DNA of 64,000 bases from Eublepharis macularius. Lineage: Eukaryota > Chordata > Lepidosauria > Squamata > Eublepharidae. The stretch is taken from contig NC_072793.1 in assembly GCF_028583425.1 (NCBI RefSeq), forward strand, positions 59,525,028 to 59,589,027, read 5' to 3'. Shown here piece after piece: positions 7,980-51,632 of this stretch. The translations under genes and the position numbers were made by a program. The stretch's first letter is position 1, and the number at the start of each line of letters is the position of its first letter. The notes beneath the pieces were generated by a model that had not been told where the DNA came from, did no database searches, and saw nothing but the letters and a program-made list of their open reading frames with translations.

Positions 7980-7980
7980 T

Positions 7981-14921: not shown

Positions 14922-17900
14922 CTACAGGGGTTCATCCAAACTTGAATCTTTTGAGAGGTCCTGGGCCTCAGAGCTGAGGAAAGAATCTTTAACCACTTTA
15001 CTCTTCCTCTGAGCTTGGGACTGTTTCACAGCAAACTGCACAGCAGCATGTATACTATGAAAGGGCAGTAGCTCTGAATCCTCCATCCCAGTGAGCCAAC
15101 CACCTGCTTGGAGTAAGTGGCGGAGAGACGGGTTACAATTGGCCAACAGGACCTGGATACCTATTTTCTTATAGTCTTGACGAGTCTCTTTCAGCACACT
15201 CAAGCCCACACTGTCTAAAAACTGCATGGCACCACAGTCAATTATTAAGGTGTGCATATCAATGGATGGCACAGGAACATCTGTTGAAGCTTTCTTGGCT
15301 TCCTTCTTGGTGACCTTTCGGCAGTTAAACTTGAATGAAAAGCAGTTTTCATTTTTTTCTTTACCTTTTTGCTGCATGGCAGCAATCAAGGAAGGATTTA
15401 CTCCTGTTTTTTGGAAGAGTGATCTTTTGAAGTAGTCCTTGTTTGCATAGTAAAGGGAGGTATCAAAGCGGTAGATTTTGATATTGGCAATACTGTTGAT
15501 CTTCTTATAAGTGAACTGGTCCTCATAGATTTCTGAGTCACTCACTTTTCCTAAAAGGGTGGCTCGGGGCCTTTGGGTCCGGAAAATTATGCAGAGGAGA
15601 GAAAAACAGACCCCTATCAGAAGGCCCAACTCTGTGGAAACCAATGATGAGGACAGCATGGTGACCCACCAGATCACAGTATCTATCTTACTAATTCGCC
15701 ACATCTTGGGAGTATCAAAAAACTTCCTTAAGCCACCACGGAGGTTAACAATAGTAACCACCCCCAGGATACAGGTTTGCAGTGAGTAGAAAAGTGGGGC
15801 AATCCATAGCAACACCAGGAGCAACACAAAGGAAGATATCAGACTTGAGATCTGAGTATGGCATCCTGTGGATTCTTTCAGCAAGGTCTTTGATAAAGCT
15901 GCACAGCTCGCAAAGCAGTAGAAGAAAGATGGGATCAGGTTTCCCATGCCAATAGCAATCATTTCTTGGTTGGCTCGCACTGGGTATCCATGCTTCTTGC
16001 CAAATATTTCTGATAGTGAGACTGTCATTGCAAAACCAATTATGGCAATGGGCAGAGCATCGAGGGCCACATTTGGCAAAAGGCTCATATCTGGTACAAC
16101 AGGTTGCTTGAAACCAGTGGGGATGTTGCCACAGATGTTAGATTTGTATCGTTCTTTGAAATTAAAAAAGTATGACAGCAGAGTGCCTGCAATGACCACC
16201 AGAAGTTCCATAGGAAAGGGAGCTTTCATCTTATCCTTATACAAGCTATTGATTTCCTTTATTGGCACAATGAGGATGAGAGCAATCAGGCTGGTGACCA
16301 GGTCACAAATATTAGTCTGCTGGATGTATTTGAAGATCTCAATCCATGTTAGGATAAAAGACCCCATGCCATCATGGCGAGGAATTTTTAGACCCAGTAG
16401 GAGATTCATTTGGGAAGTAAGGATAGTCAGGGAGGATCCAGTCACAAAGCCACTTAGGAGGGGTTCTGAAAGATATGTGGAGATGAAGCCCAGTTGGAAA
16501 ACTCCGAGAAGAATCTGAAAGCAAAAGTATCAATGAATCTGAATTACAAGGAGAAATGAAATATCACTACTTGCATTTGTTCTCTGTTCAGTCAGAAAGG
16601 AACTAACTGCTGTTTTGAGACAAGGAAGGTGACCATGAACAATTACAGTCACAGCTGCATCAAAATATACCTTGAAGGAAAATATTATGAAGAATTATCA
16701 CTGAAGTTAGGGGAGGATGGCACAAGCCTTTTTCTACTGTTCCTTTTTCAGAATGAGTGGCATAATGCACCTTTTGTCTGCACAAGCAGTCTCCTCTTAT
16801 TCCCAGGAATGTCCTTCTATGGACCAGTTCATCATAGGTACAGGCAGCAGCAGTTTTTGAGACTGGGGCATGCTGCAGCCACTTGGGTCTCTGAACCTTT
16901 TCAGCTGAATATGCAAATCAGCTTTGTGCTTGATACGAGGTGATATGACAGTTCTGCAGAGCCAGCCTGGCATAGTAGTTAGGGTGTCATATTTGGACTG
17001 TGGGAGACCTGAGTTCAAATCCTTGCTCAGCCACAAAACCTGTTAGATGACCTTAGGTCAGTCATTCTATGTATTTTACAAGGCTGTTCTGAGGATAAAA
17101 TGGAGGAGAACTTAAGTAGGCCTCTCTGAGTTCTATGGAGGAAGGATAGGGGAAATGTAATGTATAGATAGTTCTGTCTAGGATATTTGACTTACTGATT
17201 ACACGTGCAAGGCAACGTTTGATGCTCTTGTCATTATAAATTGAAAATGCATATATGAACATCTAGAGATTGTAATATGAGAAGCCATTCCTTCTAGATC
17301 CTTTATATATTTAGGAAAACACAACCAGGCTGTTCAGTTCTGTGGCTTTAACCATAGCAGGACAAACAAAGGCTTATGTTTGCTTGGAGGGGAGGGGAGA
17401 TTTCATAACAAAGTTTAAAGACTGATTCTTTTATTCAAAATTAAATTGCAAAAAAAACCCCACCCTCCCCATATATCTGAAAAGTAGTCACAATCACTTG
17501 CCTAGCCACCACTTAAGTTACTTTTTTTTTCACTTCATAATAACTATAACAATGTTATCAACAGATTTCAAACATTTATTTGGACAATACCTAATCCCAT
17601 TTAATTGTTGGCATTGCAACACTCACTAAATCTGTAAAAACAGGGAGCTTAGTAGAGAATAGCTCTAAGGAATAGTCATGTGCAAAGAAATACAGAGCAT
17701 TGGACTGTCCCCTTTCTTACCTCCTTGTGCTACTGTGGCTAAAGTAGTATCCCAAGAATTTCAAGTACAGCAGAGTTAATCCATTTTTGCTCCATCTGTC
17801 ATGTAGATCCCAAACAGCCAAGCCCACACTACTCAAAGCAACTATGGGGCTCAACTAGTATAAAGACAAGTCCTCGACCACACAAAAAATCTTTTAGATG

Positions 17901-18791
17901 TATTGGAAAGTGTGCCTCCCTTTGACCTGAATCAAGTCTTAGATTTAAGTGCCCTAAAAGTCTCTCTTGGCCCATTGGTGGGAGGCAGGGAATAGCCAAG
18001 CACATTTTTACTGTGCCTTTGCCCCTCTCTCCAGCTCTTATCACTACAATTTTGTAAATAGAGACCACTTTGGAAACATTTGTCCTAAAAAGTGGTTACA
18101 GAAATACAATAATAAAGAAATACCTGCATTTTAAGAGAACTTTAGCATGGACAAGAACACAGACAGCAATGTCACAAAAGCTAACAAAACTCCATACCTG
18201 GTAAAGGCCAACTAAAAAAGTTAAAGTGGTTGCCACAGTGATAGCATAACAACTTTTGTCACAAGCAACTGTTCCGTTCAATGTGACATTTTCCAGTGAG
18301 GAAGCACCAACTCCAGATTCAAATCCTGCTAGCTTGAGTTGCCGATTTACAGATTCCCCGATCATCAGGCAAAGAACCCCAAAAGAGCCTACACAATTAT
18401 GATGTGAGGTAGCCATGAAAAAGTAGATAATGGCGCTGAAGAAGTTTGTGTAGAGCCCATAAATAGGATCCTGGCTTGCTAGGATAGAATAGGAGATTGA
18501 CTGTGGGATGGCAACTATCCCAACCAGTAAGCCAGAGATGATATCGCCAAGCAGCTGCGTCTTGATGCTGTAACGAGGAAGCCACTCAAATATGGGGAAC
18601 AGCTTGAGGAAGAAAGTGACAATGCTTCGACGGTCACACTGGCAGCTCTCCTTGGCTTTTTTGAGGAGCTTCTTGGCACTGAAGACTGGTGGTTCATACT
18701 CTTCTAGCTTGACAGGTATGTAATGAGAACTTGACTCTGGCAAATGGGAATTTAGCATATCACTGCTGTGCTCGGTAGTGCAACTCTCCAT
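14922..18791 (-). CDS. SLC26A2-like sulfate/anion transporter (tandem paralog)
   Basis: Two coding exons, 18198-18791 (198 codons) and 14922-16514 (530 codons plus TAG), give 728 residues, close to human SLC26A2 (739). The ATG at 18791 has a good context (GCGATGG) and lies 13 bases after an acceptor (TTTCAG at 18805-18810). The donor is CAG|GTATGG and the second acceptor TTTCAG|ATT, phase 0. The protein has a cytosolic N-terminus, a SLC26 membrane domain (about 65-520) and a STAS domain (about 536-696; HTLIIDCGAMQFLDSVG). Substrate-site residues seen: PQ at 96-97 in TM3, and Lys407 in CAALSKTLLKESTG (TM10), the SLC26A1/A2-type Lys in place of prestin's Arg. NVT and NGT sites at 169-175 fit the glycosylated loop. 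Odd: the near-invariant TSRHISVG block reads TSHHNCVG (128-135). IPRHDG, RTQRPR and YYANKD recall SLC26A1, whereas TGVNP recalls SLC26A2. It looks intact, so it is probably expressed; transported ions are inferred. Confidence 0.9.
16515..18197 (-). other. Intron of the SLC26A2-like gene
   Basis: 1,683 bases between donor CAG|GTATGG and acceptor TTTCAG|ATT. Its position between Q198 and I199 is the same as in SLC26A2, which indicates that the duplication copied genomic DNA rather than mRNA. It contains a SINE at 16962-17160; the rest appears unique. Confidence 0.88.
16962..17160 (+). mobile_element. tRNA-derived SINE inside the intron
   Basis: It begins 'gccagcctggcatagtagtta' (diverged A box), has 'gagttcaaatccttgc' at the B-box place, then 'gaccttaggtcagtcat', 'ggctgttctgaggataaaat' and 'ggaggaaggataggg'. 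It has the same layout as the minus-strand SINEs at 13925-14137 and 63388-63622. It is antisense to the host gene. Confidence 0.78.
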
Positions 18792-18804
18792 CGCTCCAAG
18801 ATAG

Positions 18805-20584
18805 CTGAAACATATATTAATAATGATGGGGGTCAATTAACTGGTATACTGTTGATGATGCCCTGTGTGAAGATTACAACTCCTGAATCTCATGCAGAGC
18901 CTTTCATATTCCGCACTGAAGCTTTGATGCATATTAAAACAGCCATGAAAATCCTCCTGAATGAATTTGTTATGAATGAAACTAAGATGCTTTCTACCCC
19001 TAGGATTTGTGAAGTGTTTTACAATAATACTACTTAGGAGTGTACGAAGTAGGTAGAGATTATACCTGTACAGATTAAACAGCTATAGAACAATGTTAAT
19101 CAGCTTTTTCCTTTTTTATGGTGCTATAAAACAGTCCTTCAGCTAGATCATTCAGAAATGCCTTTTTGGGGTGTGTGTGTTATGTGTAATTAAATTGCTT
19201 CTGGTTTACGGCAATCTTATGCCCTCCAAAACATCCTTTCATTGACAGCCTTGCTCAGGTCTTGCACACTGAAGGCCACGGCTTCCTATATGTTGTCTCT
19301 TGGAAAAAATGTCTGATATTTCAAAAAGGAGAATGATAAATTATTAATAATCTGATCCTTTGTGTTAGTATTTATGAAATGTATGGGTTTAGATGACCTT
19401 TTTGTAATTGCTGAGAGGTCTCTAGCCCCTTGTGGATTAAGATTAAATAAACTGGTTTTAACCATTCAGAAATTCTGCATGTTTCACTTAAAACAAATAA
19501 ATTAACATAATCTTGGCAGATTATTTCTCCCAACAAAACTCAAAGTCTTTGTAATAAAAGATAATCTATAGACCCCAACAATTGAAATGCATATCATTTT
19601 TATTTTAAATGAAATAGTTCAATAATTTCAAGGTCTTTATTCATTACTGTATCCTGTGATCACTGTGGGCAATTTGCATTACACTTCTCCCAGGGGTTAG
19701 TAGGAACGTTACTTCTCTTCAAAGTTTGGAGCAAATGTAATTTATGAAGGAGCAGCATGCAGATCTGGCTTGTGACCAGAATGATGAGCTAAAGTGAACA
19801 TCTATGCTGGTGCTTATGATACTGCCATTTTACATACTATCTTTCATACTTATGTTCAATACTCTTCTTGAGTCTCCAAAATATGAAAGTAACATGCTGA
19901 TGAGGCTCAATTTTTTAAACCTCTTTTTGTCTCATAAAACTATTAGTTGATGGATAATTTCTGACTTATTAATTATCCTATTTTTCTACTGCAAATCAAC
20001 ATGGCTACCCATCTAAAACTAATTTGCACCTGTAGTTAATCAAATATTGTTGGTATGGAATATCAGTATTATTAATTATCCTGCTTTGACTGACTAATTT
20101 CTGCAAAGATCCAAGACTATTTTCTAACCCACTTGGTCCAGTAAAAGGCAACCTCATATCACCATCAAAATATAAACCTTTATCCCCTCTATAGCCACAC
20201 ATGAGAATGAGATTAGCCTTCTATCACCTCTCATGAAGGACTCCAGAATCAACTTTTTTGCCCCTGCTTTTATGGCTGGGCAGCTTTCCATTCCCAAAGT
20301 TCTCTTTGTCCTTCAGTTCTAGTTTCTACTTCAGCACTCATGCCTAGCTTAACATGAGTGGCTTTTTCTTGGAAGAATGATATTTTATCTTGAATGGAGT
20401 TTGTGGCTGTACATTTGGCTTAAGACTTCCCAGTAGTTTTCTCCTTTTTTCTTTTGTAATTTATTTTGTAATATTTGCAATCAATTTGAGGGGGGGAAGA
20501 GTAGACTTCCTGTTCTTTTTTAGACTTCCAGTGTACTCTTCCACACTTTTATTTCCATTGCAGAGCCCATTACATAGTACAATA
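18805..20584. other. Upstream of the SLC26A2-like gene; no first exon recognised
   Basis: The acceptor at 18805 implies a non-coding 5' exon further right, but no CpG-rich promoter was seen between here and 48 kb, apart from GC-rich transposons. Most of the stretch is AT-rich and unique-looking. Confidence 0.4.
19150..19310 (+). repeat. Dispersed repeat ('gtcaagtcgcttc' type)
   Basis: The phrase order 'gtgtgtgttatgtg', 'aaattgcttctgg', 'ccctccaaaacatcctttcat', 'acagccttgctcaggtcttg' and 'ggccacggcttccta' belongs to a repeat common in reptile genomes. Its beginning matches the tails at 46860-46925 and 50740-50800. The family name is uncertain; a LINE 3' end is possible. Confidence 0.5.
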
Positions 20585-20844
20585 CAGGGCTTTTTTTCAG
20601 CAGGAACGCGGGGGAATGGAGTTCCGGAACCTCTTGAAAATGGTCACATGGCTGGTGGCCCCGCCCCCTGATCTCCAGACAGAGGGGAGTTGAGATTGCC
20701 CTCCGCGCCACTGAGCAGCGCGGAGGGCAATCTAAACTCCCCTCTGTCTGGAGATCAGGGGGCGGGGCTACCAGCCATGTGACCATTTTCTCCTAGGGCA
20801 ACCCACTGAGTTCCCCCACCTCTTTTCCCAGAAAAAAAGCCCTG
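20585..20844. mobile_element. Palindromic hAT-type MITE, 260 bp, with 8-bp target duplication
   Basis: The ends are CAGGGCTTTTTTTC and its inverted copy. GTACAATA flanks both sides (20577-20584 and 20845-20852). Inside, two arms of about 70 bases are inverted copies ('gatctccagacagagggga' and its complement) around a short centre near 20710-20720. There is no coding capacity. The 8-bp duplication and CAG ends are those of hAT elements, so it would have been moved by a hAT transposase acting in trans. Confidence 0.88.
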
Positions 20845-20961
20845 GTACAATATATGCTTTACAATTTATTGGCAAGATTCTCCTCCCTTAGAGATTTAAT
20901 TTCTAGACATCCAAGAGAGAGTGAGAATGGGCTGGCCCTTGAGGAACTCTTTGTGCATGCA

Positions 20962-20986
20962 TGCACACACACACACACACACACAA
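20962..20986. repeat. (CA)n microsatellite
   Basis: Uninterrupted CA run of about 12 units. Confidence 0.9.
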
Positions 20987-23269
20987 AATTAAGCACCCTT
21001 AACATCTCAGCAAATGACAAAATATGTGCAGTGTTTTGCTAGAGGCAGGCACAGAACAGTTGGAACATACATCGCTTTCTTCTCCAATGCAGGCCTTTGA
21101 GTTGCCTCCACCAAGTCATCAAATCCTGAAAACAGAAGGAAGAAAAAAAAATCACAGCCTAAATTACAATGCTTCAAACCTGTGGTGTTCTCTGTCTCCT
21201 CTTGACCATTCCAACACAAGAAGTCGTGCGATCTCGAATCCAGTCCAGTGGCCCTTTTATCTTCTCTCACGTTACCACAACTCATTGCCCAGCCACCCTC
21301 AGCTCTGTTTTGAAAACAAACATCATTTAAGGGGAATATTTTTATGGAAACTTGTCCTACCCACTAATAATGATTTTAAAAGTTTAAATAAATAGCAATC
21401 ATAAACGATACACAACTGCCAGGATCTCTAGATTTTGTTTGCTAAACAAAAGGTAGTTGTTCTTGTGGTTATCTTATAATTCCTTTCTCCTATTTTTTTG
21501 GAGAGAAACGGGAAGGAGAAATTTCAGACTTGATTCACAAAAATCCAGAGAAAAACAGGGGAAAGCAGGTACATGTACAAACATAGAGGGAGTTTAGTGC
21601 TGAAGCTGATGTTGGATTCTTTGTGATCAAAGAAGAGAAAGATTACTCTCTCACCACAAGCACACAATTTTAGGTGCTTATCAGAAACTTAACAGGAAAG
21701 ACAATATTGGCACCTTTGTTTGCTGTGACGGCTGAGGGTTGTTTTTCAAAACTAACATGGAGCTTTGTATGCAAATATATTTAGCACTTAGCTTCTTGAA
21801 CAAGAGATATGAGGGCTTATGCTTCTCTGGAAATACTTCAGATCTGAAAGCCCTTTCCTGTAACAGGATTAGCCCAACTATAGAAGCAACCAAACTTCTT
21901 TACGTACCTTGAAGTGGAAATTTACGAAGCTGCATAAATGTTTTTGAGAGAAAGCTACTCCCTGCAGTTTTAGAGTCAGTTTTGGAGCTAAGAGAAGAAA
22001 ATAAAGATCTGACAGATTTTTAAAATAAAACAAAACAACAAAAGCCCCCTGACTAGACTCTATGGCATTATACTCCACTGAAGCCCCTCCCCTCCCCAAA
22101 GCCAACCCTCCTCAGGCTCTACCCTCAAATCTCCAGGAATTTTTCATCTCACAGTTGGCACCCATTACCATTGGCAAATACTCCTGCTAGACATCACCTT
22201 AGAACTGGGAACATGGTAAGTTGTCTGAGACTAAGGTGGAGACCAGGACTACACATTAAGCAGAATGGGTTAGTAGACTCCTGAGGTGGTAGAATGGATT
22301 GTACCATTTCAGAGTATTTGGGGGGGAGGTCATTTCTGAATATTGTTTCATGTAAAAAATCATGTAGTTTAGCAGAGAAAATGTTTCCATTCTAAGTTAG
22401 CTGCTCAATAAGGCAGTGGGGAGAGAAATAGGATGGGCAAAATGGCACACCATGGAGCCGTGATGTCACTTCCAGTAGTGTAACTGTAAGCGATGTAACA
22501 GCATTGTGCAGTGCTCTAGGATTCCCCCCAAGCTCTATAGTTTTTACCATAGACTTTTGGGTGAATCCTAGAGCATCCTGAGATGTGCTGACCATTTCCA
22601 GTAATGCAGCTAGAAATGACATTGCAGCATTGAAGGATGCCATTTGGGGAAGTCCTGCCTTTCCAGTCTTCTTGATTTTTTCCAACACTGAGAAGCTGAG
22701 TAGAGCCATTGTGTTGACTCATCGTGCAGAGAGGGAGACTACGCAGGAGCACACTGGCCCTACCCCTTGCTTACACACAATTGTCTGTGGACTGTGATTG
22801 TGCAGAGGAAGAGGCCACATGTACCCCCCCCCCCAATGATCATTGGTGCAGCTTGCAGGACATGACTAGTCCCTCATGATCCTTACTGTACTAATTTTTA
22901 TTTGTATGTTGCTTTGTTTCCTAAACTCACAGTTAAAAATGCAGTTCTGCAACTGTACTTTAAAGATGTAGAGTTCATTTTACCATCTTGGGAATCTACT
23001 GCCTTATTCTCACTTCACTCTTAGACCTAATCTACACGAGGCAGTAGGATGGAATATATTTAAACTACAGGTGGAGAAAGTCACAGTTCTAATTATTACA
23101 ACATATAAAACTCCCTGTAAATTTTTAAAAATAAAATCTACAGAGTAAAGTTCTAGCACAAGCAGTGCTAACTTGCCAGTTAGTGATGTTGCGGAAAATT
23201 GAATAATGTAGGCTTTCAGCTGCTGTAATACAGTTCATTCTACCATTGCCTTAGTATAAGCACCTCATT
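20987..23269. other. Intergenic stretch with decayed repeats
   Basis: No gene is supported. About 22040-22165, read on the minus strand, resembles a non-autonomous DNA element common in lizards (phrases 'ggagatttgagggtagagcctgagg' in part, and 'ggggcttcagtggagtataatgccatagagtc' in part). About 22430-22720 holds short direct phrases ('tgtcacttccagtagtgtaa', 'ctctaggattc.cccaa') of similar style. Edges cannot be fixed. Confidence 0.4.
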
Positions 23270-23375
23270 GCTCTTCATGGGTAGCTCAAGCCTGAGATCC
23301 TTTAATTGGACATTGAATTGGGAATTTTTGGCTTTCACCGCAGGTGCTGAATCACTGAGCCATGGCCTCTTTTAT
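23270..23375 (-). mobile_element. Sauria-type SINE fragment
   Basis: On the minus strand: 'gaggccatggctcagtgatt' (A-box region), 'cagcacctgcggtgaaagcc', 'aattcccaattcaatgtcc', 'aattaaaggatctcaggc'. This order matches the tRNA head and start of the body of the Sauria SINE; the tail is lost. Confidence 0.65.
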
Positions 23376-23821
23376 CCACCTATCTGTGTCTGAAAAAAAT
23401 GTGTACTTTGTAATGTTTAGTAGCAGCACAACATTTTTTTTCACCAAAGGCTACATGGTCTGAGAAGTCACTGCATATATCATGGTTTCCTTGTTCATAT
23501 CAGAAAAGATCCTCTTGTGAATCAAATGTTTTAAAGTACACATTTTATAACTAGGTATAGAGGGCTCCCCCATTTGTTGACTCATTAGGCTGGAAGGGAA
23601 ACCAGGTACAAGTGTGCTGGCTCCACCCCACCCCACAATTGCCTCATCTGCAGAATGTGAATACATAGGGGAAGCGGCTGCTTATACACACCCTTCCCAT
23701 GTTCAGCCATATTCTGCGCAATTGCACTCTGCAGACAACCAGGCAATTGTGTGGAGACGGAGGCAGGGCCAGTGTGCTCCTGCCCAGTGGGTCAACACAC
23801 TGTCTCTACCCAGCTTCTTGA

Positions 23822-24178
23822 GAGTCTCTCTACACAAGACATCTTACATGGGACACTCAAGTGTGGGGAGACACAATGTTAGCTGGGAAGCGTAGTTTAA
23901 TCTTCACCTCCCCAAAGGCTCTGTCAATTTCACCTCTCTACAGGAGGGTAGTTAAAAAGACAGAATGAGCGGAGATTGCTCCTCAGAGGGTTTGTTGATT
24001 TCAGAAGTGAAATTGACAGGGCCTTCAGAAGGCGAAGATGAAATTAACAAACAATTAACAAATTAAAAAACCCTCGTGATCTCCACCAATTCTGTCTTTT
24101 TAAACTACACTTTTCAGCTAACATTGCATCTCCCTACTCTTGAGCATCCCGTGTAAGATGTCTCATGTAGAGAGACTC
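23822..24178. mobile_element. Fold-back MITE-like element
   Basis: The ends GAGTCTCTCTACA and TGTAGAGAGACTC are inverted copies. The arms continue inward for about 100 bases ('catcttacatgggacactca', 'caatgttagctg', 'gtagtttaa', 'aaaagacagaat'). There is no coding capacity and no clear target duplication, so the superfamily stays open. Confidence 0.62.
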
Positions 24179-25824
24179 ATCTCAGCGTGGAAAAAATCAG
24201 TGTGTTCATATTGGGCAGCTCCAGTGCCAACTTTGAAAAAGGTCTTCAAATAGCTTGTTGAGTCTTACCATTTTTCAGCAGCAGTAGTACTTTATGGCAG
24301 ATCACCATTACTGAGCTCCAGCGGTTTTGCAGCACTGAGAATAAGCAGCATACTAGGAGTAAAAATGTTGTCTGCTTCACACTTAGGTTATTTTAGAAAC
24401 CTGAGTTAGGCTTTTTAATACCAGAATTCAAAGCTAGTCACATTAAGAAATCAAACCAATAATTGCTTCCATGTCAATGGGAAATGCATTTTCTAGCTGT
24501 AAGTCCCCCTGTGCTTCTCATCTCAAATTCCAGGCAGATAAAGTGGCCCCATTGTATAGACACTTAAAATCCCAACTTGCAGAGCAGATGCAGTGAGGCA
24601 TGACTTATGTTAATGACCTTTTTGCCTCCTTCCTAGGGTTTTTCTCATGGGTGCTGGGTGGTAGTTTTTTAAAACAAATATGGAGGATGCAAATCTTGTC
24701 CCCTCTCATGACTTACCTCACCACAATCTGCTTCTTTCAGCATTCTTCTCCCATCTCTGTTGACTTCCAACATTGGAGCTCAATTAGGAGGGAAAAAATG
24801 CTTCCAATAGTGGAGTGCAATTATGTAAGGCTAGCGCTTACATACACTTGTTTAAAAACCCATACACTTGTTTAAAAAATGCCCCCCTACGGGCACAAGC
24901 ATAAATATTTTGTTAGTTCTCTGTGCATCCTAAGTTTTTCCCTGAATTGTTCAGAGAGGGGTTTTTTTTTGTAAATCAATAGTTCCTACTTAAGCACAGA
25001 TGTGTCTGTTTGTGCTGTTTCATAACACAATATGTACATTTGCTACAAGTGGTGGAGGCATAGCTAGTGGGCTCTGGCAGCTGCCTAATCCTGACAATTC
25101 CAGGCTCCAGCTGTATGAATGATCTTAAATGAAAGTGGATTTTCTGAATTAAAACCTATCACCTTAATTTTAATTAGGGCAAAAGTTCGGGCAGACGTTT
25201 TCCCCCACAGACACAAGCAACAAATGAAACATTAATGTTCCAGCCACCTGCTTTAGATAACATTTCTGAAGGATTAGAAGGATTAGCCCTAGGCAACCTG
25301 CCAGGAGAATTGTTCCTGGAAATGATACAAATGCTAAATATAACAAATAAAGGCTTGGATCCAGCTGCAAATTTCCATTGACAGAAGCATTTCCTTCCTT
25401 GTAGCATGACCTCCTTGCCTCTCCCCTCTTGCTGCAGCCCATAATGCCTTCCAAATGCTGCTCCTGGGGGAGTTCCAGGAACAAGGGGGGGGAGATAGGG
25501 GGTTAGAGGTCTGCAGTGGGAGGGTGGAATCCACAAAAATATCTCCCCTTCCATCTGTGCAAATGTTCTGCAAGATCCAACCAACATTTTTACCATACAA
25601 ATCCATGTATGCATTTATACAGGTCTTTAAGCGGTTCTTTACAGCAGTGATCCCTGACATGGTTCTTCCGGACACCATGATATGTTATGCTGTATTTCCT
25701 GGTGCCTGTTTGCTTCTTGAATCTAGTGGATAGACTCCAACTGGTCTTGAATGAAACAGTTCTGGGTCACGTCCTACCAGCTACATGACCAGCAAAGTAC
25801 TGAGCTCATCCCAGGCATAGATCC
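24179..25824. other. Intergenic stretch without supported gene
   Basis: Nothing recognised. A small tandem duplication ('tacacttgtttaaaaa') lies at about 24841-24878. The overlapping frames at 25170-25678 have no known motif and no splice context. Confidence 0.4.
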
Positions 25825-26165
25825 AGCGGAGTTAGCTGTGTTAGTCTGTAATAGCAAAATAGAAAAGAGTCCAGTAGCACCTTTAAGACTAACCAACTTT
25901 ACTGTAGCACCATATGTAAATTTGACTCAGTCAGGCTTGGATTGAATAGGGACTATGAATGGTTATCTTATTATCAGAAGTAACTGATCTCATTATCAGA
26001 AGCTACTGATTGCATCTACTCCTCCCTCCCCTCTCCACCTATATATCTGACCAGATTCTTCTTACCCTCCATTCATCTGACGAAGAGAACTGTGGTTCTC
26101 GAAAGCTTATGCTGCAGTAAAGTTGATTAGTCTTAAAGGTGCTACTAGACTCTTTTCTATTTTGC
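25825..26165 (+). mobile_element. Penelope-like tail with an inverted copy of itself at the 5' end
   Basis: About 25930-25980 codes in frame for FDSVRLGLNRDYEWLSYYQ, the C-terminus of the Penelope endonuclease seen at 8442. It is followed by the standard tail to 26165 ('tctgacgaagagaactgtgg', 'cgaaagcttatgctgcagta', 'cttaaaggtgctac'). At the left, 25833-25905 is the reverse complement of the last 80 bases. The unit is thus a 5'-truncated copy with an inverted tail fused in front. Confidence 0.75.
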
Positions 26166-28080: not shown

Positions 28081-28137
28081 TTTTAACTGCTAGCTGATTT
28101 GGTGGCCCTAATTGGGCATAAAGTCAGCATTCCAAGC

Positions 28138-38934: not shown

Positions 38935-41900
38935 ATCACAAGCAGGTGAAAAATTTGGCACCCTTACCCTTATGCCCCCTTTGCATCACACTCTTCCCCC
39001 CATTTAACAAAGGGTAGACCCACATATGTGAATTTGTTACTACCATGTGTAGCTTGGACCTAAATTGTCATATGAGGAAACATTTTATTTCAGAATAGAG
39101 AGGGAACAAATCTGCCTCACTTTATTACCACACACAGGAAAGGCAGACCAACAGCTGCTCTGAGTCTCAACTGGGGAGAAAAGGGGGATATAAATGCAAT
39201 ATAAGGCCAAGCTACATCATGTACTCCCTATTTTCCCACCACTAACTGGGGGGCTGAGTTATTTCCTTTGTTGAGGGTTGCATGTGTACTGATGGGGTCA
39301 TTTTGGATTGGAAAAATGACACAGGAGAAAGGCTGAAGCCCCTTCTACCCCATGCTGTGGTTCTGATCCAAATCAGGGGCCTGGGTACTTGGAAAACAAG
39401 TCACCTCTCCACTCCTGACATTTGTTGGTGTACAAGTCAGGTTGAGAGGACCGCAACACACCGTATTACAAATCAAAACATGTAGTTCATGCCTTGGAGA
39501 CCAGAAATATAAGTCTCCAGTTGGAGAAAAAAACAGCTGAGGTGAAAAAATGATTGTGAATAAGGTCCAAGCAGGGAAAGGGGTCATCTTCCCTTTCTTC
39601 TCTGTTCACAGGGTGCTTTAAATCATGCCTCCCCCCTTTTGTGAGAAATTGGTTTGAGGTGAGATAGGTCCTGCTGCCCCAATATTTATTTGCCTCTAAA
39701 AACCATCACCATTCATGGCCTGTTATCCAGTAGAGTGGTCAAATGAAAAGTACATAAGACATCTATACAGTTATAAATATAATATTTTAATAGTAAAAAA
39801 CTTTTAAAGCAATCATATGAAAAACTGATACAAAATTGTCTCATCTGTCCAAAGCTCCTTCAAGACTTATTAGAAAAGCATAAAATCTTAAGCAGCTGGA
39901 ATTTAACAGTACCAGATATACACTTGATAACATTCATTCATTCTTTGGGTTTTTTTCTTGCACTTCGGTTGATCTTCCCAGTAAAAAATACAGATATTCA
40001 CAAAACGTTATTTGGTCAGGATGTTACAGCACTTTGGTATTACAAAGTTAGGTTCACTTGATTTTCTTGGGATATTGTTTCAAGAGTGGTATTACAAGTA
40101 GGATTTTAATGTTACATTAAATTAATATGATGGGGTTGGAGAGACCAGGCCAGAGTCCCCCATGATCCCTGTGACAGTACAGTGGCTCCAAAGCAACAGC
40201 CTTGTTAGACCTGGGAATATGGGTTCTTTTACTAGTACAAGGAACCAGAGGACATTGCTTGCATCCTTCCCACTTTCTTGCTGCTTCCTGCCTAGTTCAC
40301 AAATGCACACTGCTTTCTACATGGCATTTCGTATTGCTGATAAGGGAAGAAGGCTATTTTCTGATGCTCAATTCTATCTGGTAGTAGTTCACATTCACAG
40401 AGATATAAAAGTAGTGTAAAATGTGGGAGAAATAAAATACTCTTATCTCTTGATGGTTATGCTTACGAGACTGTCAAAAAGGGAAAGCTGATAACAGATG
40501 TTCTATACATACAGGAAATAGATGTTTTTGTTGACAAAGAAAGAACATCATTTTCAAACCTCTGGGCTCCACAAGAAGTAATGGCTTGGATCCCACAACC
40601 TGTTTCACTAATGTTAAGATCCCAGCTTAATTCCCTGGCACCTCCAGTTAAAGCATCTCCTCTCCTATTACAGATCCCCACTTCTCCCCCCTGTACTGTT
40701 GATGAAGGTCCTCTGCCCCCAGCAACAGAATTTCAGGAGGTTGAGCGCATGTAAGTGGGGAGGTGGGAAAGTCCCACTCTGTAAGCTCTGAGTGTGGATC
40801 TTATAGGATCCAAACCATCAAATTGTTCTGGCCTATAAAGTATCTGCTTTCTATATGACTTATATTTGATATAATGCACCTGTATATTAAGAGTAGCTAA
40901 ATGGTAAATTATACAAAGACATTCAGGTAATAAAAGAATCAATAATAATAGACATTCAGGTAATAAAAGAATCAAACCCTTGGATCATAAGAGTTTGAAT
41001 TTTTTACCCCATGGTAAAACCTAGAACTGTTTCTCCCTGGGTTTCTTGAAAGCCTAGGCTTATCAGACATCTACAGAGTGCTAATGTGAAAATATATTCA
41101 TACAACCTCACGGGGAGGGGGAGGGGGAAGCACTTTGTTTCATTTATTCTGCCAGCTCAATACTACAATTACTTCTATCCCTCCATCCCTTGATATCTGA
41201 CAACCCCCAGAAAAGTGGATGGCAGCTGAATAGCAGCAGCATGTGCTGGTTTGCACACCTCCCAGCAGCAAGAGAAAGAGGACCCCTCTGTAACATTTGT
41301 CAGACATTCATGCTCCTTTCCTTTATCACTTTACAGTTAATTAAGAAAATCAGGTATCAGACAAGAAAGCTACATTACGCAAGAATGTCCCTTCATAAAC
41401 ATACTGCAATTTTAAGGCTTTATAGAGAAAAATAATCACACACATTTCTGTTTAGAAAAAAGAGCAAATCCTATCATGTTTGATACCTTGCACACAATGG
41501 CCATTTTTATTCTTGCTTACACTCCAGCACAGATCATTACAGACTACATAGTGAAATATTCTATAACTTAAAAAAAATGTACTTTAGAAGATGTATTATT
41601 GCAGCTTTGGAATTAGCAATATGGCCAGGGATGTAAAATTACTATCATGGTAAACAGCTTGCCAGACTCTGCAACCAAAGCTATACTATGACACCTAGGT
41701 TTATGTCGATAGATAGCCCTATCAAGAGATCAGCACTGTGTACTTAATTTAAGGGCTGTATTGCCTTGGGACATTATTTCGATTCTTGGAAAGCTATCAT
41801 CACCTTGAAAAGGTGCCTACAGAAAACATGAAGTGGTTAAAACAAGTCATGTCACCTTAGTGCCTTGTGAAGTAGTTTCTCCATCCCCAAGACTAGCACA

Positions 41901-41944
41901 AGAAGATGAGCAATATTAAGCAAATATATGCACATGCTTACCTG
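38935..41944. other. Intergenic stretch without supported gene
   Basis: Begins with the right target duplication. A 25-base word is repeated with a 32-base period at 40919-40943 and 40951-40975. No exon-like frame. Confidence 0.4.
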
Positions 41945-42150
41945 CATATTAACATGTCTTACATTGTGTCAGACCTTTGGTCCATCTAGGCCAACATACT
42001 TCAACTGGCAGCGGTATTTCAGCGTCTTAAGTCAAGCAGGGTCTTTTCAAACAACTGCTGCCTGAAACCCTTTAACTGAAGGTGCCAGGAATTGATCTTC
42101 AAGTATTACGCATGCAAAGACGGCACTCCACTTTTGATAGCCCTTCTGTA
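41945..42150 (-). mobile_element. Sauria-type SINE, near full length
   Basis: On the minus strand: 'gtctttgcatgcgtaatact' (tRNA-like part), 'gatcaattcctggcaccttc', 'agttaaagggtttcaggcag', 'accgctgccagttgaagtat', 'tggcctagatggaccaaagg' and 'tctgacacaatgtaag'. This follows the Sauria SINE from its tRNA region to its tail and is the best clue that the host is a squamate. Diverged, so old. Confidence 0.75.
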
Positions 42151-44508
42151 ATTTATACACATTTCAGAACCCAGTATTTCATGGGGGCAGAATTTGGATT
42201 ACAGTGGTTCAAAAGTAAATTTGTTTTCAAATGAACATATTGACTTTTAGTTTGGAACTGTTAACTGTCTTATTTTTAAAGATATTTATTTACTTCACTT
42301 ACAACAAAATGATTTCGTGAAACTTCCACATGGTTCCCCTTATAATACCCCGATTTTACCTATCAAAAGGAAGGAAAATTTGATCAGTTGGGCAGATCTG
42401 TTTACCAGTTTATTCAAGATCTTCATGGCAAGTTCCCTCACTTACCTTTCTCCTCAGTGAGGACACAAACAGCTTACATCATTCTCTCATTTGTGCTTCT
42501 TTTGTTGCCTGGATCTTTATAAAAGTAATATATACTCCTGAACCAAGAGAGAGCGAGAGCAAGAGCGAGAGCGTGTGTATTTAAAAACCCAGAATGCATT
42601 GCTGACAATCTTCCCCTTCTAAAGTGCAATGCTCTGATAATGATGGAGACAGTAATCACAAAGGCACTGAAAGAGACATATGTTGTCTTCTTTTTGTCGT
42701 CTCCTCTTGCCAGTAATATGTAGTAGAACATAGTGTATGATGTGATGTCATTATGCTTTGAATTCTCCTGCATGTGCCAGGCAATGATGTAAGGAGGTGG
42801 TGGATGGGAAAATGTATAGCAGAATGACATGACACATAGTGTTATGGGAAGATAGAAAGTTTACATGGTGAGGTGGCAGCTCCATCTCACTTGTAATGTC
42901 TAATTTCATTTTAAATCCCCCCTTAAATACATTCACGGCTACCAAATCCAGACCTGAGTTATGTTAAAGTTCACAATTGTTCAAGAAGTACAATCAAATA
43001 CTTTAAAAAAACAACAACACTGCAATGATAGGTGTGTGCTAGAAACAACATGCCTCTCCATATGTGTGTGTATGAGGGTGGGTGGGTCTGAGTTACAGAC
43101 TACAGAATAATTATACCCCAGATTAAAGATATGCTTGTTTGATACCTTGTTATTTATATGGCTTTCCAATCTCCTTTTCATTAGTAATTTTCTGTAGTTA
43201 TGAACCACTTCTCTAAGGCGATAATACAATAAAAATGCAAAGAATACTTTCCACCAGAGGGTTCACAAACATTGCTTGAGGCAGCTACTTTCCATCCATG
43301 TCATAGTCTTATTAAGAGTTTAATAGATGTTCTCACCTGCTCTTTCAGTCATATTATCTGACAGGCTGTTCCACCTTCCCTTATCTCAAGATAGCAGTCC
43401 TATAGTGGCAACTGGGGATGGAAGGAATCCTGTCCTTTCTCCCCTCCTCTCAGGGCAAAATGGTTCTTAAATAGCGTATGGTTGCACCTGGTGGAGTATA
43501 CACTGCATAAATTACAATGTTACTGTAGGCTATGCTGAAGGTATATAACATGCTGTGTCAGAGGGATAGTGTCTCCACGAAAAACCAATAGGCCCATTTA
43601 TGTATTATTTTGGGTTTTGTCCTACACTACCCTCTTGGTCTTTTTGTCAGAAAGCAAACACAATAAAAGGCACAATAAAATACCGGTGTATCTTCAATCA
43701 TCCATGGTCTTCACAGATTGGGACTTTTCAATTTCTTTCTCCTGCTGCAGCTCCCTGAAATTTTGTCTCTGGAAGAGCTAACAGACCTTCAGGAACAGCA
43801 GAGGGACATAGTGGGATGGGGCACTGCCACTCCCTCTGTAGATGGAAATGCCATTTTGTCGAAATAACTGGATAGCAGGATACAAGCCACTCTAACTAAA
43901 ACAGTGATGGTGTGATTAAAAAGGGAAATTGTTCCAGTTGAGAACATCACAAGCAAAATTTAGACTCATCATTTATAGTTTACCAGTCTTGTAAATTCAA
44001 GATTATAATTAGCGCAATATTACTTACTAAAGGGCACACATTTAAAATGTAAAATCTGTTAAGTTGTTAAATGCCAGGATTTATAGTGCATTAACTGTGC
44101 TAGAAGTAACAGAAACTGCTATAAACAGCATCTGTAAGAGTCAAAAGATAAATCAAGAAACATGTTGGGTTTATAACTGAAGGTTTGTGGATATTAATTT
44201 CCATAGCGCCCTGTTGTTAATATAAAGATGGGTTCCAAAAATCTCAACTTCTATCACTCCTGCTGGCAACGTCTTCTTAGCATTTGAAAGTTAAGAGGCT
44301 TGGAGGTAGAAACTCAGCTTCTTCCATTTAATAGGCACTTCTGCATGAGGTAGAACCCATAAAGAGAACCACTATATCAGCTGTGAATCTTGAACATGCT
44401 GACACCAAGGAGCTAAAATGCAACTGGCAACCACAACTTTAACATGGCAAAGCCACACTGGGAACCTGGAGTTGGAATCCTTTCACCATTCAGAGCACAA
44501 GACTAGCA
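42151..44508. other. Intergenic stretch without supported gene
   Basis: Nothing beyond a purine-rich GAGAGC/GAGCGA stretch at about 42548-42573 and a possible SINE tail remnant near 42430-42480. Confidence 0.4.
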
Positions 44509-44600
44509 GTGCCATTCTGAGCAGTTATACCCCTCTAAATCCATTGATGTTGGTGGGCTTAGAGGGGTCTAAGTCTGTTTAGGATGCCACTGCAAAGGTG
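44509..44600. repeat. Small palindromic MITE remnant
   Basis: 'tgagcagttatacccctcta' and 'aatccattgatgttggtggg' are mirrored by 'cttagaggggtctaagtctg' and 'tttaggatgccac'. This palindrome type, centred on a 'ccattga..tc/gggctta' core, is widely repeated in reptiles. About 90 bases. Confidence 0.6.
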
Positions 44601-47600
44601 CAGGTGATTTCTTTCTTTACTAAAAGCCTCAATCTGTTTTCTCCTCTTCCTTCCCTACCTCGGGATGGGAAGTATTGCATTTATGCCAGCTCTTCAAGGT
44701 ATACATAAAGCATGAACCATAACACTTGCAGTTGGCAAAACAATTTTTTTTCTAGCACTACTGCAGATTTGAAAAGAAAAGCAAAAACAGCCAGGGTGGT
44801 TCAGTTCTCCAGTGCTAGTCTCCTGTAGTATGGTACTCTTAGAAATTTATTTATAAAAGAAATCAAGACCTGAATTGTATTCTACCACAATATATGAAGA
44901 ACCACAAGGAAAATGCTTCCTCCGGTCTTCCAGAATCAGTCTAACTTCATTTACACTTGCCATTAAGCCCTTTTGCAAGATTCCCTTCTCTCGCGTGCAG
45001 AATGTTAGCCTGCAGAGCACCCTGCTGGAAGAACACAGAACTACTCTTCAGGGCCACTTTCTATCTTCCGAGCATCAGAATGCTCCTGCAAGCAATTTAC
45101 ACAGCTCTTAATAACAATGTGGGAATACATGTGCCTGCTTTATTTATTTACACACACACAAAAGAGGGCTGAGCAAGGCGTTCATCCATCTCTGTTAGAA
45201 GAAAGCATGTGTCTGAAATCTTTCTCTGCAGAATTTCTACCTACCATACTATTAAAGGTGCAATTTCTTGATTAGGAAAAAACAGCTCTAACTAAAATGC
45301 AAAACTTCTGTAAGAATTTAGCTAAGTGTGGCAGCCATGGAAACTACTGAGGGTATTCATCTTAGACTTTACAGAGTTTAGGACTCAATTTCCTTAAAAT
45401 GTTACTGAAAATTATATTCCTATAAGGAAAAGAAAATCAAGAAAATCCATCAAGACAATCCAGAGAAGAATAATCTACCTTGGTCTCCTTTTATTTCCAG
45501 GGAACTAAGCCAGTTTAAATCCAGTTTGGAGTTCTAAGTGTGCAATTAATATATTCTTGTCTTCCTAATGAGTTTCTGTTTCATACTGGAGATAAAGTTT
45601 TGAATTTGATAGGCTAATTTTCTTGATTAATTGCCATAAATTACTTTTGAACTCTTTAAAAATGGGGGGAGGGGTAAAAGTCTTTTTAAAACCAACAGTC
45701 ACATAGTAATCACACAAAAGTAAAAGAGGGAATTCAGCATTATCTCCCATGAAGTCCTATTTTTAAAAATTACTTCTATTTGTATACGCTCTTGACAGTT
45801 TGACTGGCATTTCACGTTTATCTAAGTTAGCTACACCACTCCTACTAAAATAAGTGAAAGCTACACAAATCCCATTAATTTCAATGCAACTATTGCTAAA
45901 GGCTTCCTAGTACAATGGGTTGGATTCTAAGAACTGCAAACCGAGTTTTGCTTCCAGAACATTTCTGTCCTGACTCTCTGCATCTTCTACCACCTCCTGT
46001 GCCCCCAAAACTGCTACCCTGGGAACAGCAACAGAAGCAGTTCAGGGGAAACGAACCCTTATAAACTACAATGTTTCAAATGGAATTTTTTCTAGTGCCT
46101 TATTTTCTCATGAATTTTCCATTTCTAAAGATTCATTGTTTCTTAGTATTAGTAACAATGAATTGATGCAATTGCCAATACAATATTAGACAGGATCAAC
46201 AACTTAAAAATGGTTATTAATGTTTCACAAGTGACTGTACCTAGGAATTATGTGTGAGAGAGTACTATGCATGTTTTATTGATTTGTAAACTGGGGGTGG
46301 GGGAATGAAATCATAAACACACAATAATCATCAAAATAAAAATCAAGCAATGAATTCAACTGATTGACTATGCAGGTCCAAACAAAACCAAAGCTAAAAT
46401 GCCCATTTATATGTCCCTTCTTACATGGTGAAACGGATATTATCATCACCAATCTGTTATGGAATTGGCAAGTAATGCAAGTGATGAGGTGCCCCACTGA
46501 CATCCACAGGTGGACAATCACATCCAGGGCATATCATGCAGTTCAATGAGAGGACTACTGTGTCAATGTCAGTGCCTTCATTTTCTCCCCTTAAATTTTA
46601 TCTGTGTAAGGGAAATACATGCTATATTGTCTTTAAATCTTTGCAGTATCATTCCAATAAAATATTTTACACATAATGCTTTTAAATATAACCTATACAT
46701 CACACAATTTGTTTTTTTCCTAATCAAAATTTTTCAGTTCAAGTATTTTTTCCTAATGGATGTCAATCAATTGTCAAAGCCTCCTAGGATTTCTTTGATC
46801 ACTCAGAAGCAAGAGAAGTTTCTCTCACACTAAATTAGTAGATTTCGCCTATAGCTGAAATTGTATATTCCCTATTGGGTCACTATAAATCAACTGCAAC
46901 TTGATGGCACCTTACACACGTTATAAAGAATCCCCCACTGCAGGGAAACTCATCTTTGATAATAAACTGCATAATCAAATAAGAATTTTACCATGGCTGA
47001 TACCTATGAATTTGCAGTGCTTCCACATGAGGCTGTACAGGAAAAGTCTTTTCATAATTAACTCCCATAATAATGAAGTTGTTACAGCCCATGTTTCTAT
47101 GTGCTAGGAAAGCTAGTAATTGCACATAACAGAGGTTCTACTTTCTTCTTCTTTTTATGCTCCATTCCAGAGCACTTTAAAATAGAAATAGTTCAACAAA
47201 GTTTGCAAAAGAATGTTCTGCCAAAAATATATACTTACAATTGATCATTTAAAAACCCTGCTTAAATAGCGCCCGCACCATTAACAGATGTGACGGAATG
47301 CATCGACAGGCTTAAAATGATGAGAAGTAGTTTTCGCTTCAGTCTTAGTTGTTTGCATTTTACACACCTAATGGGAACTTGAAAACAAACTCAAGCTCTT
47401 GTTTATGCAAAGACATTTTTGAGTCACATACACTGAGATGTGCAATGCAAGTCTTAATCTACAGAATCCTTCCACATTATGCAGTAACCTACAGCCAGCT
47501 GCCAGAGACACTTTCTCTCTGCTTCTTCAGCACTGGGAAACTACTTGTAAGCCACCCTGAAGTTCACTTCGATGACCCTATAGCTGCATTCCATTGTTCT

Positions 47601-47859
47601 TCTTAATAGAAGGGTTACTGCTTTGGTTTCCAAAGATTTTCAAATATACAATTTGCTTCGTACATTAAAAAGAACATTATTAAAATGAGTATAAAATTGC
47701 TAAAACTTGGGTACCTTATCCTTTGTTTAGCATTTTAGTAAAGGCACTTATGTGCTCCTATGAGCTACTTGTGCTTCATGTGGTCTAATGTCAGCCCTAG
47801 AATTGCTTATCTTCTGTTTCAGCATTTCTTCAACTCTGTATTGGATTCTTACTAATGCT
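44601..47859. other. Intergenic stretch without supported gene
   Basis: AT-rich, no exon-like frame. A minus-strand repeat tail ('aaggtgccatcaagttgcag') lies at about 46860-46925 and matches the tail at 50740-50800. Confidence 0.4.
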
Positions 47860-48020
47860 ATGTCTTTGTAAAACTGTGTTTATTTACCCCATAGCATTGT
47901 TTATTAAAATGTCCTTGAAACTGACTGTACTAATCTCACACTGTGTAATCTCAGTGTGAGATTAGTGAGTCTCAGTGAGAAAGGCGGACTATAAATGACA
48001 TAAATGAATAAAAAAAATTT
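47860..48020 (+). mobile_element. L2-type LINE 3' tail with a perfect hairpin
   Basis: 'gtctcagtgagaaaggcgga', 'ctataaatgacataaatga' and an A-rich end form the same tail as at 37410-37480. Just before it, CTAATCTCACACTG (47930-47943) and CAGTGTGAGATTAG (47952-47965) form a perfect 14-bp hairpin with an 8-base loop. This lies in the presumed 3' flank or 3' UTR of SLC26A2; two AATAAA hexamers on the coding strand lie nearby (47900-47905, 47879-47884). Confidence 0.6.
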
Positions 48021-48506
48021 TTAAAGCACTTGGCTTTAAACAAGTCAAACTCAGCAACACGCCTGTTTTCAGTAATTTTAGAAGTAGGCAAAATGCAAAT
48101 TGCTCTGCCTGCTCAGAACTGTGGAGAGGGATCAAATAAATAAAATGACATTTACTGTTTCAGGGCAAAGTGCCATCCAGAAAGATGGTGCTGTCTATTC
48201 AAGCCCAAGTCTGAGTTGTCATGGGAGACAAAAAAATTTGGTACACGGTAAACATCAAGAGGAGAAAGAGAGCTTTAAGAATATTTGTTCTTAATGTTTG
48301 CCATGAACAGGCTACACACACTATCAGTCATTAGTCACTACTAAATTCTATGTGCTATCCAACACAGCAGATATAACACATTTGTTTATATTTTGTACAA
48401 TCAGTATCATATGGATAGATGTAGCCCTTTATATCTGTGTGAGTGTATGCCCAGCATTAACACACAGATATATGAATTTGGCAAATATTCAGCACAGAAT
48501 CTTACA

Positions 48507-51500
48507 CTAGGCTTCAGAGTCATAGCACCCATTCTGCCCGTAAGCACATAATGCATATTCCACAGCTTGGTTCACACTATGAAAGAGGAGATTTTTCTCT
48601 CCCTTTTTAGTATACTTCCCTCGGTTTAGAGAATCCCTCACAGAAGGACTGCACTGAGCCAGCAGTACCTGGATGCCTATTTCCCCATAATCCTTGTGAA
48701 CTTCTTTTAACGTCTGGATCCCAGCAGTATCTAAGAACTGCACTGCACAGCAGTCAATCACTATAGTATGGAACTCCAATGGCTGAGTGACAAGCTGCAC
48801 TGAGACAGCTGCCTGGTTTCCATTAGAATTGGCCATTTCTTCATGAAACTTTTGCTTTTCTGCCTTTTTCTTTGCCGCCAGCACCCACAAAGGGTTGACG
48901 CCAGTCTGCTTGTACAGCATGGATTTGAAGCATTCTTTATTTGCATAGTAGAGTGGTGCTTCAAAACGGAAAATTCTGATGCTTGGCATTGTCAGAAGGT
49001 CCTTGTAGGCGAGAAGAGGTTCATATATTTCAGATGCTGGCACGCAGCCCAGTAGTTGTCCTTCTGGTCTCTGAGTCCGCAGAATGACACATAGCATTGA
49101 GAAGCACACCCCAATCAGAAGTCCAACTTCAGTACTTATCAGTGCTGAAGACAACATGGTGACTACCCAGATCACTGTATCTACTTTGCTTAACCGCCAC
49201 ATTTTGGGCAGGTCACCAAATTTCCGCAAGGCTCCTCTGAGATTGACAATGGTTATAACACCTAAGACACACTTTTGGAGAGAGTAGAACAGAGGAGCGA
49301 TCACAAGAAGGATAAGCAAGATGACCAAGGCAGTCACCACACCAGAGATCTGAGTCCTACAACCTGTTGACTCTTTGACAAGCGTCTTGGCAAGAGCTGC
49401 ACTGGTTGTGAAACAGTGGAAAAAAGAGGGGATGATATTGCAGAAACCAATGGCATACATTTCCTGGTTGGCTTTAACAGTGTAGCCATGCTTCTTGGCA
49501 AACATCTCAGACAGAGACACAGTGATGGCAAAACCAATAATGGCTATGGCCACCGCATCCATAGCCACACTGGGGATCAGATTCCAGTCTGGTGGCTGTG
49601 GTGGCAGAAAGCCAGTTGGAATGTGTCCAGCTACACTTGAACCATACTTGTCTTTCAGTTTGCCAAAATGAGATGCTAGTGTAGCTACCACAACCACCAG
49701 TAGCTCCATAGGCACGGGAGCCTTGAGTTTGGACTTGAACCGCTCATTTAGCTCTTTAGTTGGGATGAGAACAAGAAGACATAAAAGGCTGGTGATGAGA
49801 TCACAGATGTTGGTCTTGTGGATGTTTCTGAATATGTTTATCCAGGTGGTTACAAAGGAGCCAATGCCATTGCTCCGAGGAATGTCTAGGCCCAAGAGGT
49901 ATTTGGCTTGTGAAGTGAGGATTGTGAAGGAAGCTCCTGTAACAAATCCACTGAGCAAGGAATCAGAGAGGTACACAGAAACAAAGCCCACCTGGAAGAA
50001 GCCCATGGCAACCTGAAAAGAATAAGAAACACAAAGGATCAGAAGACAGTTTGGCACCCTAGGCCTGAACAATGGCTCGGTCACACCTTCCCACGCAGCT
50101 GGATGCCACTGCACCTGAAGAGTTAAACTGCACCTCTGGTTTGTAATGATGAGTAGAGAGGTCGTGAGTTTTTTTAAAACTTATGTTAGACCTGGAACCC
50201 CACAGCAATTAACCAATGGAGTGATATATAGTCTTGTGTCTGTAATTTGGCTTGGCAAACCCAGAGTGCAAAGCAAAGAGTAAGGTTAGATCTCCACTCC
50301 CTCATACGCACCCACAGATGGCATGAAGGAAGTAAACAAAAAGAACGGCAAATGCTCTTATCTAGAAACAAGGAAACAAAAAGAAGAGCATTTGTGGCGC
50401 AGTATGCTCAAGTAGGTGGAAATGGCATTCACAAAACACTATGCAACACTAACCCCTCACCAATGCCCTTCTGTAACTTGAAATCTCATTTTTTCTATTT
50501 AATCACCTTCCTATAAAAACAGTGATCCGCAACAACCCCCCGTTACTCCATTAACTCCCTCCTCACCCAGCCATCCAACGGAGTGGGGAGAAATAGTGTT
50601 TGAGTGCCAATAATCTCACTGAAGTGCAAAACAATGAGACAAAACAGTCAGAAAAAAATTATTGTGGGGGGTGGGTGGGGGAGATCAAGGCTTAAGAAAA
50701 AATTTACCAGGATGTAATTCCACCAAGATCAATGTGATTTATTTCCATGGTTGCCATAAGTCAGAAGTGACTTGATGGTACATAACACTCACACACACAA
50801 ATATGCATAAGAGGTGCAACCACATCTGATCTGTGAGAATTATGGATCTTAATGAATTAGTACATTATTTTTGACTTTGAATCAAAAGAAAATATGTAAC
50901 GCTGTAATGCTGCTTGTTCACCAACCTGGTACATTTAATAGGAAGACAATAAGAGGAAAAGATATCCTTTGAACTGTTAACTCTTACCTGATAAACTCCA
51001 GCTATGAAAGTCACAGTGGCACCAACAGTAATTGCATAGCAACTTCTATCACATAATGCTTGTGATGTCTGGTTCACAAGCCCCAGTGTGCTGTTAGCTA
51101 CAAGAACACTCATTTCTGAATGATAACTGCTTGGAGCACCAGATTCCAAATCAAATCCAGCTCTCTGTAGTTCACGATCTACCACTTCTCCAACCATTAG
51201 GCAGAGTACACCAAAAATGCCAACAGAGATGTGACGGGATGTCCCAAACAGGAAATAAATAATGCTGGCAAAAAAGGAGGTGTACAGACCATAGATAGGT
51301 TCCTGGCCCGCCAACAGAGAATAAGCAATGGATTGTGGAACCAGCAAGATTCCCACAATCAGACCAGACATAACATCTCCCAAGAGGTTCTCTTTCAGAT
51401 TGTACTTGGGGAGCCACTTCAGCACAGGGAGGAGACTGTAGATCTGGTCTTTGGCTCTAGCTGGAGTGCAGCTGCAAGCTTTCTTCACTTTATTCATCAC

Positions 51501-51632
51501 ATATGCCTTGACGCTGGTGTGGTTTTCTACAGGCTCCAGGAAGATTCTAGGATGACACTTTGGTTTGCCATCATTTACTTCTGCCAACTCGAACATGGAA
51601 TGGACATGGCTGGCTTCCATTTCCGCTGCCAT
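48507..51632 (-). CDS. SLC26A2: Sulfate transporter SLC26A2 (DTDST)
   Basis: Exons 50988-51632 (215 codons) and 48507-50012 (501 codons plus stop) give 716 residues; human has 739. The protein follows human SLC26A2 nearly throughout: [58 protein letters not shown], and [22 protein letters not shown]. Order: cytosolic N-terminus (1-65), SLC26 membrane domain (about 66-535), STAS domain (about 550-705). The anion site has PQ at 99-100 and Lys424 in TM10. Glycosylation sites NST and NQT lie at 180-189 in the outer loop. SLC26A2 exchanges sulfate for chloride, hydroxide or oxalate at the plasma membrane and supplies sulfate for cartilage proteoglycans. ATG at 51632 is chosen (AGGATGG); the next Met is five codons in. 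An acceptor (TAG, 51645-51647) lies 12 bases upstream, so the 5' UTR is mostly in another exon. Introns have GT-AG ends. Intact. Confidence 0.97.
50013..50987 (-). other. Intron between the SLC26A2 coding exons
   Basis: 975 bases; donor CAG|GTAAGA, acceptor TTTCAG|GTT, phase 0, after Gln215. It includes the minus-strand repeat tail at 50740-50800 ('ccatcaagtcacttctgact'). Confidence 0.92.

Follow-up and report, generated by a model that had tools for sequence, protein, structure and literature searches.

Two intact SLC26 genes stand head to tail on contig C4 (188 Mb) of an assembly of 2.24 Gb in 72 contigs, in the stretch of 64 kb analysed here as a whole and called the window (C4:59525028-59589027). 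This raises the question of what the second, downstream gene is, and whether it was gained in reptiles or lost in mammals, a point that the initial annotation had left open. Our analysis indicates that the copy is almost certainly slc26a12, which makes up the SLC26A1/A2/A12 subfamily as its third gene, arose from an old tandem duplication beside slc26a2, was lost in mammals and most likely encodes an anion exchanger.

Both genes lie on the minus strand, with SLC26A2 upstream and the copy downstream, and the ATG of the copy is separated from the SLC26A2 stop by a gap of 29.7 kb. Coding exon 1 of the copy (18198-18791; 594 bases, 198 codons, ATG at 18791) is an open frame with a GT donor and aligns to SLC26A2 exon 1. 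The phase 0 intron (16515-18197; 1683 bp, GTATGG...TTTCAG) is followed by coding exon 2 with the stop (14922-16514; 530 aa), which encodes the STAS domain and the larger part of the transporter domain according to Pfam on the spliced protein. SLC26A2 has the same architecture: coding exon 1 at 50988-51632 (645 bases, 215 codons, ATG at 51632), a phase 0 intron at 50013-50987 (975 bp, GTAAGA...TTTCAG) and coding exon 2 with the stop at 48507-50012 (501 aa). The spliced two-exon translations are 728 aa long for the copy and 716 aa for SLC26A2, and neither contains an internal stop. In both genes the intron sits after the same Gln codon, the last one of GLYQ in the copy and of GVYQ in SLC26A2. 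The initial description of two intact genes about 30 kb apart, in the same orientation and with an intron of identical position and phase, thus holds, and its outer ends, 14922 and 51632, are the stop of the copy and the start of SLC26A2. An acceptor 10-13 bases before the ATG had also been proposed for both genes. TTTCAG ends 13 bases 5' of the ATG in the copy and TAGAGAG precedes the ATG of SLC26A2, with AG at 12, 10 or 8 bases; the AG dinucleotides are present, as putative acceptors. Sulfate_transp (PF00916) is followed by STAS (PF01740) in the copy (392 and 68.1 bits against cut-offs of 23.2 and 22.6), and both domains score well over the Pfam cut-offs in both window proteins. By this domain order the copy is a member of the SLC26/SulP anion transporters.

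The two window proteins are identical at 369 of 682 positions (54%; BLASTP, E = 0.0), or 54.4% in a multi-protein comparison. Given this identity and the Sulfate_transp and STAS domains in both, their relationship is far beyond chance. DNA comparison of the gene blocks (13.0-21.0 kb versus 46.0-64.0 kb) yielded seven blastn matches. Four run from exon to exon, the longest with 67% over 944 positions, and the remaining three connect short pieces within 13.9-14.1 kb with sites beyond 58 kb. Within these blocks no match joins the introns of the two genes, which argues that the pair is old. Between the two coding sequences 62% of third codon positions differ compared to 23% of second positions, as expected under purifying selection. 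We give codon-position differences only because the Nei-Gojobori method returned no dS for any of three gene pairs, owing to saturation.

Next, we consider which gene is which. The best solved-structure matches of both window proteins are the same two sequences, 7xlm and 8tnw, named sulfate transporter (1130 bits for the upstream gene, 795 bits for the copy in the PDB search), followed by the prestin entry 7v73 (631 and 587 bits, respectively). Structure 8tnw appears in a study of human SLC26A2 (PMC11059360), and none of the 24 matched PDB sequences carries the name Slc26a12. Human SLC26A2 is 74.6% identical to the upstream protein (512/686) and 53.5% identical to the copy (357/667). Judged by these similarities, the upstream gene is SLC26A2. 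A PF00916 profile search matched at least 35 places in the genome. Grouped by position, the matches listed comprise the two window genes, one gene on contig C8 (134.09 Mb) and short exon pieces in nine further clusters; the number of clusters results from our own grouping, and all PF00916 counts are lower bounds. The C8 gene is intact, encodes 702 aa in two exons (donor CAA/GTAATG, acceptor CAG/GTT, phase 0) and has its intron at the same place. It is 55.8% identical to the window SLC26A2 and 48.0% identical to the copy. Being the only other gene with a long second exon among the matches listed, we take it as the SLC26A1 candidate. PDE6B is the neighbour gene of SLC26A1.

The gene pair might also be an assembly artefact, in which two loci were joined. 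We found nothing in favour of this reading and consider it extremely improbable: the window contains no N, each gene occurs at one place among the PF00916 matches listed, and the same arrangement has been published for lizards and snakes (PMC11145369).

We then compared the age of the duplication with the split between mammals and reptiles. The tree was built from the SLC26A2 proteins of the window and of human (the latter with 689 residues), together with the copy, the SLC26A1 candidate and six out of the nine remaining genome clusters; these clusters serve as outgroup and are partial rows stitched from tblastn hits (209 to 444 residues each). The four sequences of the two SLC26A2 proteins, the SLC26A1 candidate and the copy split from the six other SLC26 clusters with support of 100/100. 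By this split and by its two coding exons with the conserved intron place, the copy belongs to the SLC26A1/A2/A12 subfamily. Window and human SLC26A2 are sisters (99.8/98) and the copy falls outside. The order of the copy relative to SLC26A1 is weakly supported (43.9/59), and three orders of SLC26A1/A2/A12 pass the AU test: the copy with both SLC26A2 proteins (0.59), with SLC26A1 (0.427) or outside both (0.085). A clade of the copy and the window SLC26A2 is rejected (delta lnL 23.3; KH p = 0.0018, SH p = 0.0126, AU p = 0.00035). Since a gain restricted to reptiles predicts precisely this clade, the duplication is older than the divergence of mammals and reptiles, and the gene's absence from mammals is a loss. 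The tandem duplication, the intactness and the old origin suggested by the initial annotation are supported. Of the two possibilities it had left open, reptile gain is rejected by the AU test and mammal loss is supported, with the gene reported back to the coelacanth (PMC11145369).

Site patterns provide a further view of the alignment. Where window and human SLC26A2 differ, the copy matches the window protein at 36 sites and the human protein at 24 (p = 0.16) and thus leans to the window protein. At the same class of sites, the SLC26A1 candidate matches the window protein 40 times and the human protein 30 times (p = 0.28). Because the SLC26A1 candidate leans the same way as the copy, this asymmetry decides nothing. 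At 500 sites window and human SLC26A2 agree; among them, the copy shares the SLC26A2 residue but not that of SLC26A1 at 81 sites and the SLC26A1 residue but not that of SLC26A2 at 24, and at 83 it matches neither.

Two other histories have to be weighed against this evidence. The copy could derive from SLC26A2 by a tandem duplication that occurred recently, within squamates or reptiles, and was followed by fast evolution. The tandem place, the identical intron and the long branch of the copy (0.57) would fit such a scenario, but the constrained tree is rejected (AU p = 0.00035), the copy reaches only 54% identity to SLC26A2 compared to 74.6% between the reptile and human SLC26A2, and slc26a12 has been published from coelacanth, amphibians and birds (PMC11145369), so that we regard a recent origin as exceedingly unlikely. 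Alternatively, the copy might be the true SLC26A1, relocated beside SLC26A2. Identity levels within the subfamily are similar and a grouping of copy and SLC26A1 passes the AU test (p = 0.427); yet a separate, intact gene of 702 aa exists on C8, which shares 55.8% with the window SLC26A2 and only 48.0% with the copy, making this assignment very unlikely. We therefore return to an old third subfamily member, slc26a12.

Such a gene is on record. Nagashima et al. 2024 named slc26a12 and described it from coelacanth, amphibians, reptiles and birds, placed in tandem on the downstream side of slc26a2 (PMC11145369). According to the same paper, every alligator, lizard and snake examined carries the gene, most of the turtles and several of the birds examined have lost it or have a broken version, and mammals, ray-finned fishes and cartilaginous fishes do not have it; Slc26a12 shares 49-52% identity with Slc26a2 and 45-47% with Slc26a1, and expression was seen in the African clawed frog (PMC11145369). 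In the sections of that paper used here, transport is not assayed and function is left by its authors for future work (PMC11145369). Torii et al. 2025 added the two coding exons and the shared, conserved intron position (PMC12357937). Position, intron, identity and branching order suggest that the copy is the ortholog of this gene. Hence, slc26a12 would have been born by tandem duplication beside slc26a2 before the mammal-reptile split, as seen here, and before the coelacanth-tetrapod split, as published, and would then have been lost in mammals. As far as the consulted parts of the two papers go, the gene has been described together with its tandem location, intron and losses, so that the observation and its explanation are already published (PMC11145369, PMC12357937).

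The synteny beyond the slc26a2/slc26a12 pair rests on the published description (PMC11145369, as far as consulted). In the flank parts scanned, no PDE, GAF, HMG-box or kinase domain indicative of PDE6A, HMGXB3 or CSF1R was found. Pfam scans covered three frames on both strands for window 54001-64000 and 1-10000, and three frames on one strand for the flank pieces L022, L023 and L024 (plus) and L025, L026, L027 and window 10001-13900 (minus). A PDB search with one frame each gave no match in window 54001-63999 (plus) or flank piece L028 (minus). Two flank matches below the Pfam cut-off, DUF1440 and Sof1, are taken as chance.

The flanks also contain traces of retroelements. On the minus strand, 12300-12524 and 13321-13470 match DUF5641 (57.4 bits) and a Pao retrotransposon peptidase (20.9 bits, cut-off 22.3). 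DUF5641 is presumably linked to BEL/Pao elements, and we read these pieces, which lie downstream of slc26a12, as what is left of a broken BEL/Pao-type retrotransposon. Open frames at window 1354-2064 (plus) and 8442-8906 (minus) resemble what we take to be LINE-1 ORF1 and a Penelope-type or other retroelement end; Pfam gave no match in the frames of window 1-10000 on either strand. Upstream of SLC26A2 and beyond the window, RVT_1 matches weakly at 8329-8424 of flank piece L022 on the plus strand (19.6 bits, cut-off 29.6).

Short words in the protein had initially been read as a hint of old origin, IPRHDG, RTQRPR and YYANKD as SLC26A1-like and TGVNP and KESTG as SLC26A2-like. All five are indeed present in the copy, but the SLC26A1 candidate of the same genome contains only YYANKD. 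With two of the three supposed SLC26A1 words (IPRHDG, RTQRPR) absent from it, we discarded the words as evidence of age. RTQRPR is not an SLC26A1 word, as it also occurs in the prestin entry 7v73.

What might the protein do? Human SLC26A2 is described as a homodimer with sulfate bound between TM3 and TM10, and its exchange is called electroneutral (Hu 2024, PMC11059360). Alignment mapping shows that ten of 12 SLC26A2 pocket residues are kept in the copy (Q125, Y129, F165, G166, V167, A439, L440, K442, N490 and L491), among them the conserved TM10 lysine. The source, in the part consulted, lists 'Q225 from TM1'; by the numbering of its other residues, position 225 holds Val and the glutamine of TM1 falls at 125 (PMC11059360), and Q225 is probably a misprint for Q125. 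The count is ten of 12 with Q125, and nine of 12 if the printed position 225 is taken, at which the copy has Leu in place of Val. The two changes are Ser for Ile164 (Ser136) and Ser for Ala441 (Ser406), positions at which window SLC26A2, human SLC26A2 and the SLC26A1 candidate share Ile and Ala. Compared with human SLC26A2, identity of the copy amounts to 62.8% across the membrane part and 40.6% across STAS. Shortly before the TM3 pocket residues, TSHHNC at residues 128-133 of the copy (window 18393-18410, minus strand) replaces TSRHIS, so that the arginine is lost; TSRHIS occurs in SLC26A2 and the six PDB entries shown, and TSRHVS in the SLC26A1 candidate.

By analogy to its relatives, slc26a12 most likely encodes an SLC26A1/A2-type anion exchanger. 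Modelled on SLC26A2, the protein might act as a homodimeric, electroneutral exchanger of the sulfate/oxalate/chloride type that holds the anion between TM3 and TM10. We infer transcription, transport and substrate of slc26a12 alike, and the residue pattern is compatible with a working anion exchanger that would have a more polar pocket. As Ser replaces Ile164 and Ala441, slc26a12 and SLC26A2 may differ in the anions they prefer. That slc26a12 is an exchanger of changed anion preference instead of a redundant SLC26A2 appears rather unlikely to us, even if conceivable from the pocket residues. Ser at the place of Ala441 is also found in prestin entries and SLC26A6 among the PDB entries, there next to Arg instead of Lys, as well as in two outgroup rows from the same genome. 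Since prestin and SLC26A6 also have Ser there, the second pocket serine may be an old state. Furthermore, a mutant study concluded, in the part consulted, that neither a single local residue nor a handful of them determines SLC26 functions (PMC11078650), and for this reason the two serines should not be over-read.

The locus is thereby a clear example of an ancient gene that is absent from mammals. As mammals are without the gene, SLC26 work in human and mouse is blind to slc26a12. If its anion preference has changed, the repeated loss of slc26a12 would mark lineages giving up a particular anion route and not mere redundancy.

Finally, the copy can be set beside the known systems. The tandem location on the downstream side of slc26a2, an identity to Slc26a2 of about 50%, the occurrence in lizards and snakes and the two coding exons are all like those of slc26a12 in the consulted parts of the two reports, where we found no difference (PMC11145369, PMC12357937); the identities obtained here, 54% to SLC26A2 and 48% to the SLC26A1 candidate, are slightly higher than the published values. 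The SLC26A1 candidate (C8:134.09 Mb) resembles the copy in its two exons and phase 0 intron, but shares 48% identity, lies on another contig and has other pocket changes, with Ser at 166, Leu at 167 and Ser at 490. SLC26A2 (window and human; 7xlm, 8tnw) resembles the copy in domain order, intron and ten of 12 pocket residues, while 54% identity, the two serines and TSHHNC set the copy apart, as does the loop that divides the STAS match in two, which is ten residues longer in the copy than in the window SLC26A2.
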